Assembly (NCBI GenBank): GCA_902575835.1
Contig: CACGSX010000001.1
Location: 1 to 64,000 of the forward strand
Direction of reading: 5' to 3'
Source of the DNA: an uncultured Pelagibacteraceae bacterium
Lineage (GTDB): Bacteria > Pseudomonadota > Alphaproteobacteria > Pelagibacterales > Pelagibacteraceae
Length of the DNA stretch: 64,000 nucleotides
Part shown: positions 34,652-55,290 of the stretch, piece by piece
How the letters are laid out: each line of letters begins with the position of its first letter
Numbering within the stretch: the first letter of the stretch is position 1
Notes under the pieces: model-generated
Seen by the model: the letters and a program-made list of their open reading frames with translations, nothing else
What the model was told of the DNA's origin: nothing
The model's database searches: none
Translations under genes and position numbers: made by a program

Positions 34652-34687
34652 AAAAAAACCCCTACTTATAGAGAATAAATAGGGGTT
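34652..34687 (-). terminator. intercistronic rho-independent terminator-like hairpin between dctP and dctQ
   Basis: Minus strand AACCCCTA...TAGGGGTT 8-bp perfect stem (34680-34687 with 34657-34664) running into a T-run that ends at the dctQ ATG. Confidence 0.85.
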
Positions 34688-44943: not shown

Positions 44944-45363
44944 ATGTTAGATAAATTTAATGGAATAATTTATTTAATTATTTTTATTGTTCATTTTTTG
45001 GTTTATGCAGTTTATGCTTTTAGAACCGTCGTTGGGACTAAAGCGTTTATGGATCAATATAAAATAGATCATAGTGCTGCAGTAATGGTAAGATTTTTTG
45101 GAGCAGCATTTATAGGCTCTATATTAATGGCCATATACATAATGTTTGTTAGAGATGGTGGGGTAAATGGAACTTGGGGTTTCTTTAATTTAATATTTGT
45201 TCAAAACCTAATGTATTTTGTAGTTGGTGTTTACACTATATACATTAATAAATTAGGTCATAATGAGAAAACAAATAGCGAAGGTGTAGTAGCTTCTGCA
45301 GCTCTAACAATTTTAAGTGCTGTTCTAATTTATGGTCTTTCAGACAAAATTTATATTAGTTAA
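44944..45363 (+). CDS. small integral membrane protein of unknown function
   Basis: 139 aa with about four hydrophobic segments. Confidence 0.7.
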   Translation: MLDKFNGIIYLIIFIVHFLVYAVYAFRTVVGTKAFMDQYKIDHSAAVMVRFFGAAFIGSILMAIYIMFVRDGGVNGTWGFFNLIFVQNLMYFVVGVYTIYINKLGHNEKTNSEGVVASAALTILSAVLIYGLSDKIYIS

Positions 45364-46859
45364 GTTTTTTTTCTAAATGTTGAAAATATCTGCCAAAAGA
45401 TAATCACAATAGTTATAATTAAGATAATCAATGTTATAGGTCTGTCCCATAAGAAATTAGGCGAACCATCACTTATTAAAAGTGATCTTCTCAATGTTTC
45501 CTCCATTAATCCCCCGAGTACAAAAGCCAATATTAAAGGTGGCATGGGGAAATCATAGAGCCTTAAAAAAGTTGCCACAACTGCAATACCTATCATTAAA
45601 AAAATATCAAAATTATTAAAAGACATTAAATATATTCCTGTTACTGAAAAAAATAAAATTAGAGGAATTAAATAATTTCTTGGTACTGCTAAAATTCTAG
45701 CAATATAGGGAATTAATGGTAAATTTAAAATTAATAGCACGACCATACCAATGTACATTGACATGATAACTGACCAGAAAATTTCAGGGTTGGTTTGATA
45801 AAGTCTTGGTCCAGGCTGAATACCAAATCCTAAAAGAGCTCCGAGCATTACAGCAGTTGTACCACTTCCAGGAATTCCTAATGTTAGCAATGGTACAAAA
45901 GAACCAGAGCATGCAGCATTATTTGCTGTCTCTGGTGCTGACAAACCATGAACGCTTCCTTTTCCAAATTTTTGTTTCTCCTCTTCGTTTACGTAATTTC
46001 TCTCCATTCCATAAGCTAAGAAAGATGCAATAGTTGCACCTGCTCCAGGTAAAACACCAATTAAGAAACCAAGTATAGAAGACCTGGGTATTGTTTTGGC
46101 CATTTTAATTGTTTCCTCTTTGTTTACTTTAATTGAGCCTAATTCTGTTAATGAAATTTGTTTTGCAGCTCTGTTTGGATCTTTCCCTCTAAAAATAATC
46201 GTTAGAGCTTCACTCATTGCAAATGTTGCCATTACAATTAATACAAAGCTTATTCCATCAGTTAAATTCATATTGTTAAAAGTAAATCTTGTAATATCTG
46301 ACAAAGAGTCTTGTCCTACTGTTGCTAGCATTAATCCTAAAATTACCATCATCATTGCTTTTAAAAACTGTCCTTTAGATGAGAACGCAGAAATGGCTGT
46401 TAAACCTAAGATCATTAATGCAAAATAATCAGGTGATCTAAAAGCTAAACTTACTTTTGATAAACTAGGTGCCGCAACTAACAAAAAAATTGCAGAAATT
46501 GTCCCACCAGCAAATGAACTATAGGCTGCAATAGCTAAGGCTTTACCAGCTTTTCCTTGTTGTGCCATTGGATAACCATCAAAAGCAGTAGCAACAGTTC
46601 CTGGTATTCCAGGAGCATTTAACAAAATTGAAGATGTAGATCCTCCAAATACTGCACCATAGTAAACTCCTGCCATTAAAATTAAACCTGTTGATGGGTC
46701 AAAGCCGTAGGTAATTGGTATCATTAATGCAATTGCAGTCATTGGTCCAAGTCCTGGCAACATTCCAATTATTGTTCCTGCAAAACATCCAACCATCACC
46801 ATTAAAATATTTGTTAGAGATAAAGCAGTTGATAATCCGATAAGTATTCCTTCGATCAT
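45360..46859 (-). CDS. tctA: tripartite tricarboxylate transporter permease, TctA
   Basis: GTIIGMLPGLGPMTAIALMIPITYGFDPSTGLILMAGVYYGAVFGGSTSSILLNAPG; GIPGSGTTAVMLGAL. Confidence 0.96.
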   Translation of the reverse strand: MIEGILIGLSTALSLTNILMVMVGCFAGTIIGMLPGLGPMTAIALMIPITYGFDPSTGLILMAGVYYGAVFGGSTSSILLNAPGIPGTVATAFDGYPMAQQGKAGKALAIAAYSSFAGGTISAIFLLVAAPSLSKVSLAFRSPDYFALMILGLTAISAFSSKGQFLKAMMMVILGLMLATVGQDSLSDITRFTFNNMNLTDGISFVLIVMATFAMSEALTIIFRGKDPNRAAKQISLTELGSIKVNKEETIKMAKTIPRSSILGFLIGVLPGAGATIASFLAYGMERNYVNEEEKQKFGKGSVHGLSAPETANNAACSGSFVPLLTLGIPGSGTTAVMLGALLGFGIQPGPRLYQTNPEIFWSVIMSMYIGMVVLLILNLPLIPYIARILAVPRNYLIPLILFFSVTGIYLMSFNNFDIFLMIGIAVVATFLRLYDFPMPPLILAFVLGGLMEETLRRSLLISDGSPNFLWDRPITLIILIITIVIIFWQIFSTFRKKT

Positions 46860-47326
46860 CCCATAACTCCAATGTATTTTAAAAACGGATCACGAAGATA
46901 AATGTTTAATAATCCGTGTAACAAATACATAAATGCGGCAACAAATGGGAAAGATAAAATAAACATCAGTCCCCATCTTCTTTCACCTAAGAAATAGTAG
47001 GATGCAAAAAGAAATAAAGAAGTTGATATAAAATATCCAATTTTTAAAATTACTGCTGCATATATTAATGAGATAATAATTAAATAGATTATACTTTTAT
47101 AATCTAAGTGTTTATGATTTACCTCTGTAGTAACTTTCTCAGGTAAAATTATTTTTAAACTCGACAAAATAATTCCTGCCCAACCTAAATATATTGGAAA
47201 AGTCCTAGCATTGAATGGTGCATTCTCATCGAATGCAAACACTTGAATATTGTAAGCTGTGTATAGATAAAATACTGATAAAACAAAAAAAAGCAGTGAG
47301 ATAAATTTTGTAGGACTTATTCTCAC
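46856..47326 (-). CDS. tctB: tripartite tricarboxylate transporter TctB family protein, GTG start
   Basis: 4-TM small protein between TctC and TctA; GTG start at 47324-47326. Confidence 0.85.
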   Translation of the reverse strand: MRISPTKFISLLFFVLSVFYLYTAYNIQVFAFDENAPFNARTFPIYLGWAGIILSSLKIILPEKVTTEVNHKHLDYKSIIYLIIISLIYAAVILKIGYFISTSLFLFASYYFLGERRWGLMFILSFPFVAAFMYLLHGLLNIYLRDPFLKYIGVMG

Positions 47327-47331
47327 TGCTT
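47285..47331 (-). terminator. rho-independent terminator-like hairpin overlapping the tctB start
   Basis: Minus strand AAGCAGTGAGA (47321-47331) pairs perfectly with TCTCACTGCTT (47291-47301), 11 bp, followed by a T-run; includes the tctB GTG. Confidence 0.8.
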
Positions 47332-47356
47332 TACATTCATTAATAATCTATAAAGA

Positions 47357-48331
47357 TTATATTACTCCAAGTTTTTTCATCAGAGCTGTCATTTCAACTG
47401 TTTGTTTTTCCAAGAATGCATCAAATTTAGAACCTGGGTTATAAATATTTACCCATGCATTTCTTTTTCTAACAGCTTCCCACTCTGGTGTTTTTTGAAC
47501 GTCGCCAAGCATTTTAGAGATTTTGTTATAGTCACTCATACTCATGCTTTTTGGTGCAAAGAAACCTCTCCAGTTAACAAACTGAACATCATATCCTTGC
47601 TCTTTTAATGTTGGAGCATCTGGTGCATCACCTACTCTCTCAGGAGCAGTGATACCGATTATTCTTACTTGATCTCTAGCACCCATTACTTCACCTAAAC
47701 CCGTTGAAAGTATTTGAGTTTCTCCAGATAAAAGTCCAGCAAGTGCTTTTCCACCAGCATCATATGGAACATAAATCACATCGTTTGGATTTGCTCCAGC
47801 TGCTTGGAAAGCTAAGGCTCCAATTAAGTGGTCCATGCTTCCTCTTACAGATCCACCAGCCATTTTAATTGATTTTGGATCTTTTTGATATTGATCAACC
47901 GCATCTTTGAAATTTTTGATAGGTGAATTTTTTGCTACAACTATTGCACCATAATCTCCAATTACACCTGCTATTGGTTTAACATCTTTATAAGATAATG
48001 TACCAGTACCTTTTACATAACCTTTATGTCTTGTAATAGATCTTAATACCAATGGTGTTGACTGAACTAAAACTGTATCTTTTGGAGCGTTATTGATTAG
48101 GTAAGCCAAAGCTTTACCACCTCCACCACCTGACATATTTTCAAATGATGCACTTTTCAAAAAACCAGCTTTTGTTAATGCTTCTCCAGTACCTCTAGCA
48201 GTTCCATCCCAACCACCTCCAGCACCACCGCCAATTAAAAAATGTAATTTTTCAACTGCAAATGAGCTTGTTGATGAAAATAGAAGGAAAGCAGAGAATA
48301 AAACTGAAATAAAAGTTTTAATTAGTTTCAT
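47357..48331 (-). CDS. tctC: tripartite tricarboxylate transporter substrate-binding protein, TctC
   Basis: Likely start MKLIKTFISVLFSAFLLFSSTSSFA (signal peptide, upstream GAGG); LHFLIGGGAGGGWDGTARGTGEAL; track ORF extends to 48373. Confidence 0.92.
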   Translation of the reverse strand: MKLIKTFISVLFSAFLLFSSTSSFAVEKLHFLIGGGAGGGWDGTARGTGEALTKAGFLKSASFENMSGGGGGKALAYLINNAPKDTVLVQSTPLVLRSITRHKGYVKGTGTLSYKDVKPIAGVIGDYGAIVVAKNSPIKNFKDAVDQYQKDPKSIKMAGGSVRGSMDHLIGALAFQAAGANPNDVIYVPYDAGGKALAGLLSGETQILSTGLGEVMGARDQVRIIGITAPERVGDAPDAPTLKEQGYDVQFVNWRGFFAPKSMSMSDYNKISKMLGDVQKTPEWEAVRKRNAWVNIYNPGSKFDAFLEKQTVEMTALMKKLGVI

Positions 48332-48392
48332 TATTTCCTCTCTTATTATATTTATGAAATCATCATTAAACATAAGTTATAAATTTTAGTCA

Positions 48393-49472
48393 ATGCTCAA
48401 TTATAATCTCTCAAAAAATATTAAAGAATATTTCTTAGCTTTAATAGGTAGTTATAGGGCTCTTTTTATAGGACTTATCGGTGGATACCTGGGTACATTA
48501 ATTAATTTACCTTTACCATGGTTATTGGGTTCTTTAGGTTTGAATTTATGTTTTGCTTTTACTAATTATAAAATAATTTTTCCAACTAAATTGTTAAATC
48601 CTATATTTTTGATCGTTGGTATAATTCTTGGTGGAACTTTAAACGTAACACTGTTGTATAAAATTCATTTGTGGATTTTTTCGTCATTAGCGATGTTAAT
48701 CTGTACAATAGTCAGTACTATTCTTGCTGGTTATTATTTTTTTAAAGTTTGTAAGTTTAGTAAATTCATTTCAGTTTTGGCAGCTCTTCCAGGTGCATTT
48801 GTTCCAATATCTGCAGCTTTATTGGAATTTGGTAAAAGTAAAAATGATAAAGGTGTTTTGATTCCTCAGGCTACTAGAGTGATATTTATAGTAAGTTTTG
48901 TTCCTATTTTTTTTATAAATAATTTAGGGTTCTCAGAAATGGCAGGTTACAATTATGAAAATATATATGACAAAAGATATTTTTTAGAAATATTATTTTT
49001 ATTAATAATCTGTTTCATTTTTGCAAACATCTTAAAAAAATATAAAATTCCATCACCTACTTTAGTTGGTGCGATGGCATTATCTGGTGCTTTTTATACC
49101 TTTGAAATAATTAATGCCAGATTCCCGGATGCATTTATAAATATTGCATTTATATTTCTTGGAACAGCTTTGGGCACAAGATTAAATGGATTAAAAATTA
49201 AAGAATTATTATTTTTTATATTTCATGGAATAATTGTTAGTTCAATTCTGGTAATTGTTGCAATGATAACTGCTTATTTGCTCACTTATATAGGGTTTGA
49301 ATTTATCCCAACTTTTTTAAGTTTTGCTCCTGGAGGAATTCATGAAATGGTTGTTATTAGTGTTGCTTATAACATTGACCCAATATTTGTGAGCTACCAT
49401 CATTTTCTAAGAATTTTTATAATAGTTTTATTTTTACCTTACTTATTATCAAAATTTAAAAAAACTAATTAA
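48393..49472 (+). CDS. AbrB family putative transport membrane protein
   Basis: GGYLGTLINLPLPWLLGSLGLN; VLAALPGAFVPISAALLEFG; FLSFAPGGIHEMVVISVAYNIDPIFVSYHHFLR. Confidence 0.85.
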   Translation: MLNYNLSKNIKEYFLALIGSYRALFIGLIGGYLGTLINLPLPWLLGSLGLNLCFAFTNYKIIFPTKLLNPIFLIVGIILGGTLNVTLLYKIHLWIFSSLAMLICTIVSTILAGYYFFKVCKFSKFISVLAALPGAFVPISAALLEFGKSKNDKGVLIPQATRVIFIVSFVPIFFINNLGFSEMAGYNYENIYDKRYFLEILFLLIICFIFANILKKYKIPSPTLVGAMALSGAFYTFEIINARFPDAFINIAFIFLGTALGTRLNGLKIKELLFFIFHGIIVSSILVIVAMITAYLLTYIGFEFIPTFLSFAPGGIHEMVVISVAYNIDPIFVSYHHFLRIFIIVLFLPYLLSKFKKTN

Positions 49473-55270: not shown

Positions 55271-55290
55271 GGTGGCTAATTGTAGCCACC
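55271..55290 (-). other. intercistronic perfect hairpin between amino-acid binding protein and permease genes
   Basis: GGTGGCTA-ATTG-TAGCCACC, 8-bp perfect stem and 4-nt loop; no T-run on the transcribed strand. Confidence 0.75.

Follow-up and report, generated by a model that had tools for sequence, protein, structure and literature searches.

The window, a stretch of 64,000 nucleotides with about 30% G+C within a Pelagibacteraceae (SAR11) genome, carries on its minus strand a tripartite tricarboxylate transporter (TTT) operon in the order tctC, hairpin, tctB and tctA (Table 1). The relatives retrieved for comparison are also named Pelagibacteraceae. A membrane protein gene of the AbrB family (PF05145) lies divergent from tctC on the plus strand (48393-49472), and in several further genomes a more distant AbrB homologue (27-31% identical) is found only a few kb away from tctB.

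Table 1. Features of the tctC-tctB-tctA operon and parallel hairpins elsewhere in the window
Feature	Position	Strand	Evidence or remark
tctC, solute-binding protein of tripartite tricarboxylate transporter	47357..48373	-	Pfam PF03401
Mini-ORF ATG AAT GTA AAG CAG TGA	47323..47340	-	present, unconserved
Hairpin	47290..47332	-	perfect 12-bp stem and 19-nt loop; read from sequence
tctB GTG start codon, inside 5' arm	47324..47326	-	GTG in 51/51 and 80/80 relatives
tctB, 156 aa	46856..47326	-	Pfam PF07331 (TctB), E=4e-15
U-run	47285..47292	-	8 T directly 3' of hairpin; 3 pair with stem base
tctA, large membrane subunit	45360..46859	-	Pfam PF01970; 4-nt overlap with tctB
Hairpin and T-run between TRAP dctP (35712-34702) and dctQ (ATG 34651)	34657..34687	-	Pfam DctP, DctQ
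Hairpin between SBP_bac_3 gene (56143-55304) and ABC permease gene (55264-54572)	55271..55290	-	no good U-run

The tctC stop codon occupies 47359-47357 and the tctB GTG lies 30 nt further on. We accept this GTG (47326-47324) as the tctB start because it is the first ATG, GTG or TTG in the TctB frame, because the spacer between the tctC stop and the GTG ranges from 18 to 34 nt among relatives with indels that change it by non-multiples of three, and because a Shine-Dalgarno sequence, AAAGGAGGAGCGGTG, precedes the GTG in two sister-genus loci (L150 and L220). Other tctB starts were rejected on these grounds. The Shine-Dalgarno sequence is missing from the clade to which the window belongs.

The minus strand reads ATGAATGTAAAGCAGTGAGAATAAGTCCTACAAAATTTATCTCACTGCTTTTTTTTG through the hairpin region. 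The two arms of the stem, AAAGCAGTGAGA and TCTCACTGCTTT, pair positions 47332-47321 with 47301-47290 around a loop at 47320-47302, and five of the pairs are G-C. A sequence-only reading of this DNA had described an 11-bp perfect stem ending in a T-run, with the tctB start codon inside the 5' arm. The perfect stem, the T-run and the location of the GTG within 47332-47321 are all borne out, while the stem is in fact 12 bp long. The 5' arm includes codons 1-2 of tctB, the 3' arm is made of codons 9-12, and codons 12-14 span the U-run. The predicted minimum free energy (MFE) is -19.7 kcal/mol, compared with -7.3 +/- 2.35 kcal/mol for dinucleotide shuffles (z=-5.3; 0/200 shuffles equal it), and no other hairpin followed by T residues scores as high on either strand of the entire 64 kb. 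The hairpin begins 24 nt past the tctC stop and has the sequence hallmarks of an intrinsic terminator, namely a G+C-containing stem of at least 7 bp with a U-rich tract immediately after it. A generic terminator scan, which accepts loops of 8 nt or less only, did not call it. Thus, the earlier description of a terminator-like hairpin containing the tctB start holds by sequence and by fold, and the core of the stem is conserved as well. A riboswitch or other known RNA family was ruled out for the hairpin, as Rfam models gave 0 matches at gathering score within the window; a tRNA or other stable RNA was likewise ruled out, none having been found. The tctC stop codon is overlapped by a separate, short inverted repeat that is rich in A+T (TAATC..GATTA, at about 47361-47341 on the minus strand); the letters of this repeat vary, and its pairing recurs in most relatives (TAATCC/GGATTA, TAACC/GGTTA).

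The same sequence-only reading had pointed out a five-codon open reading frame that ends in a GTGA overlap with the tctB start, and had proposed that ribosomes completing this mini-ORF would melt the hairpin and so link termination to translation. The mini-ORF and its overlap are indeed present at 47340-47323. However, its ATG occurs in only 1/51 tctB loci of the genus, that one being the window's own, and in 0/80 tctB loci from named assemblies (the two sets have some genomes in common). Among the 80 loci the corresponding site holds a bare ATG-TAA start-stop in 56 and no such ATG in 24, the latter including every member of a more distant, 74%-identical group. The conservation check suggested at the outset has thus been run with a divided outcome: the stem is kept in relatives and the mini-ORF is not. 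As the ATG is confined to the window genome while all other examined genomes retain the hairpin without it, melting driven by the mini-ORF cannot be a conserved function. We regard translation of the mini-ORF as a very improbable means of opening the hairpin, and the mini-ORF itself is probably not functional, an accident of one genome.

The stem core and the GTG that it encloses are kept in essentially all examined Pelagibacteraceae tctC-tctB junctions of this tctB family (tctB1). The hairpin is also present in a single-contig genome, G181 (locus L221). A codon comparison across 51 relatives with TctB identities of 66-99% shows that codons 10-11 are TCA-CTG in 51/51 and that codon 12 is solely CTT or CTC. 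CTG and CTC account for only 2.0% and 2.2% of Leu codons in the genome, and the remaining conserved Leu positions of tctB use two to six synonymous codons. Loop codons vary synonymously (for example ACT, ACA, ACC or ACG at codon 5), and this region is therefore coding and structured at once. Among 60 distinct sequences the stem pairs are all kept or replaced by G-U, save for one G-A cell, and 5-7 T are found within the 8 nt past the stem. One pair, -5/36, is G-C in 41 of these sequences and A-U in 19; a tctB tree from which the hairpin was left out places at least three double switches at this pair. The covariation seen in this alignment is real yet rests on a single pair, and the case depends mainly on codon use and invariance. 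Taken together, these comparisons indicate that the stem is under strong selection at the RNA level. A chance inverted repeat next to the T-rich codons of a membrane helix might be considered, as Phe-rich N-termini in AT-rich genomes would be expected to yield T-runs, but the fold score (z=-5.3), the invariance of rare codons and the doubly switched pairs make coincidence an extremely improbable account.

A second tctB gene of this genome (L205, G000:C7:33800-36900) has an unrelated 12-bp hairpin followed by 8 T (C7:35256-35229, minus strand), and here hairpin and T-run lie within the gene's own codons 8-18. Across 19 sequences of this tctB2 hairpin two pairs are exchanged on both sides (GGGAC/GTCCC to AGGGC/GCCCT), and these exchanges alter the protein (Gly to Arg, Thr to Ala, Ser to Pro and Leu to Phe). 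In the tctB2 family (L268, L271, L277 and others) another inverted repeat, GTACATT...AATGTAC, recurs and has the start codon in its loop. Stems within the 5' coding region also occur in further tctB paralogues and in one dctQ, some of them without a U-run; in the dctQ of L208 (G000:C3:105500-108900) the first codons contain a long-looped stem of about 12 bp that has no U-run. Most sister hairpins of the genome sit upstream of the start codon, and the unusual feature of the tctC-tctB element is that its stem takes in the start codon of the downstream gene.

We surveyed 828 kb of this genome in separate stretches. Eighteen strong hairpins were picked between same-strand genes, and 15 of the 18 come after a solute-binding-protein (SBP) gene. 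The junctions concerned are of the types TctC-TctB, DctP-DctQ, TAXI (NMT1_3)-DctM and ABC systems with binding proteins of SBP families 1, 3, 5 and 8 and Peripla_BP_6; in one case an OpuAC protein precedes a MORN gene. The three exceptions lie downstream of proteorhodopsin, an SSF symporter and RecA. The strongest of the tandem hairpins outside transporter operons (L241:10320-10378; G000:C2:86340-86375) is the one after proteorhodopsin, 2 nt before a ferredoxin-like gene.

A second survey started from permease genes found by profile searches. It replaced a list of binding proteins obtained with phmmer, which was set aside because its seeds were hairpin-positive genes and would have biased it. 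The 828 kb contain 18 tandem junctions with a permease gene downstream and a non-permease gene upstream. An MFE of -17.7 kcal/mol or lower is found at 13/13 of the SBP-to-permease junctions, which span TTT, TRAP and ABC systems, and at 0/5 of the junctions with another upstream gene. Two of the 13 binding-protein calls (C3:105877, DctP, and C7:20567) were made without a Pfam scan of the called gene and rest on a profile hit, or on a signal-peptide-like N-terminus together with length and position. The median MFE of all junctions leading into a permease is -20.7, compared with -10.0 for 561 other tandem junctions (P=6e-9). Across the genus a strong stem is present at 29/30 dctP-dctQ junctions, as against 19/600 shuffles, and in most cases a T-run extends from it up to the ATG; the lone junction scored as having none (L197) probably did so only because it lies so near the start of its contig that the scanned stretch was misplaced. 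The dctP-dctQ junction of one more TRAP system, the sixth, which lies on a short contig (L207, G000:C19), also has a strong hairpin, CAGGCCCTCtaccaGAGGGCCTG; nine A, and no U-run, stand between this hairpin and the dctQ ATG. The tctC-tctB hairpin is thus one case of a genome-wide rule.

We propose that the hairpin is a 3'-end element of tctC set inside the tctC-tctB-tctA operon. It is probably an intra-operon terminator, an mRNA 3'-end protector or both, and would keep the tctC binding protein above the translocator. Partial intrinsic termination at the U-run would stop many transcripts after tctC, the hairpin would shield the 3' end of the tctC mRNA from exonucleases, and a minority of transcripts would read through into tctBA. 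The result would be a periplasmic binding protein made in excess over the membrane subunits. The position of the tctB start in the stem presumably reflects the streamlining of SAR11 genomes, in which the downstream gene would have moved into the element, such that the 3' arm and U-run double as Ser-Leu-Leu-Phe-Phe codons. A start codon held in the stem may additionally reduce tctB initiation on read-through mRNA. The 19-nt loop exceeds that of typical terminators, which counts against the termination reading.

Several sister junctions lack a usable U-run (55290-55271 in the window, the dctP on C19, where an A-run stands instead, and the dctQ on C3). Consequently, termination cannot be the sole common function, and protection from decay is a serious partner or rival. 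In its pure form, protection would mean that transcription continues, that an endonuclease cuts within tctBA and that 3'-5' exonucleases halt at the hairpin, leaving a stable tctC mRNA for which the U-run is incidental. The hairpins without a U-run fit such a stabiliser. On the other hand, the tctB1 and tctB2 families and most dctQ families keep a U-run directly after the stem, and the hairpin starts 24 nt past the stop, as opposed to about 107 nt into the next gene. We consider stabilisation acting by itself a realistic possibility of rather less than even likelihood. A promoter inside tctC may drive tctBA, which would count against the proposed element.

The enclosed GTG allows a further reading in which the attenuator is gated by its own downstream gene. 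This is the one form in which termination could still be coupled to translation, with the fold competing against a ribosome on the tctB GTG. A ribosome that started on this GTG ahead of synthesis of the 3' arm would block the fold and polymerase would proceed; otherwise the hairpin would terminate, so that only translated tctBA mRNA is made. In the tctB1 family the occupancy of the start codon would itself be the antiterminator, with the GTG-bound ribosome and the terminator fold mutually exclusive. The GTG is retained in the stem in all examined relatives, and in the sister-genus loci the base of the 5' arm holds the Shine-Dalgarno sequence. However, most sister hairpins lie upstream of the start codon, which indicates that this geometry is unneeded for the general function, and the window clade has no Shine-Dalgarno sequence. 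We therefore hold such gating, and with it an antiterminator role for the start codon, to be unlikely. If correct, each full-length tctBA mRNA would by construction have begun tctB translation, and the compact SAR11 genome would use a dual-coded switch without any sensor RNA. Our confidences in the terminator and protector we favour, in the stabiliser and in the self-gated attenuator overlap, because termination, stabilisation and gating can act jointly.

SAR11 bacteria rank among the most abundant marine cells and have proteomes rich in solute-binding proteins. Their binding proteins are detected disproportionately in metaproteomes (reviewed in PMC5000673). A simple conserved feature could set the ratio of binding protein to translocator in TTT, TRAP and ABC systems, and this would explain by what means a genome with little regulation does so. 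The tctB cases are coding sequence bent to retain an RNA hairpin and clearly exemplify overlapping information in a streamlined genome. In the literature searched, subscription journals being outside its scope, we found neither this arrangement in SAR11 nor a lineage-wide hairpin rule spanning three transporter classes.

The closest parallels are the internal terminators of SBP operons in cellulolytic Clostridia (PMC9045158). There too a single stem-loop with no sensor domain closely follows the binding-protein gene and precedes those for the translocator, as it does on one strand in tctC-hairpin-tctB-tctA, and it is proposed to set the excess of binding protein; when such stem-loops were assayed with a reporter in Clostridium, 20.7-96.1% of transcripts terminated (PMC9045158). 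The clostridial elements are intergenic and belong to ABC operons, whereas SAR11 also has them in TTT and TRAP systems and the SAR11 element overlaps the downstream start codon or coding sequence. Structures that act in differential decay in E. coli (PMC5927463; malEFG, puf) and in selective RNA processing and stabilisation (SRPS; PMC4423207, PMC10667835) are likewise internal to operons, favour the upstream gene and are often coded inside the downstream ORF, with SBP genes among their targets; for example, E. coli has protective structures within downstream coding sequence in a set that includes SBP operons (PMC5927463). The tctC-tctB hairpin is likewise a stable conserved structure that bounds the upstream gene and lies partly inside the downstream ORF. 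However, the mean position of the differential-decay structures is 107 nt inside the downstream ORF, and that study excluded any operon with an intergenic intrinsic terminator, whereas the SAR11 tctB hairpin has a U-run and the start codon itself in its stem. Leader-peptide (uORF) attenuators share a short ORF beside a terminator-like hairpin. In those systems a conserved short ORF controls the hairpin; the ORF at the tctB junction has its ATG in the window genome only and contains no run of regulatory codons, and the element occupies a junction between two genes, not the leader of an operon. Among the structured-RNA candidates of 'Ca. Pelagibacter ubique' (PMC2704228) there are conserved SAR11 hairpins, some with poly-U, but that search covered long intergenic regions only and would skip hairpins within coding sequence; tricarboxylate transporters are not named in its text. 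In comparison with these systems, the tctC-tctB hairpin is an element of a known kind with an unusual overlap.
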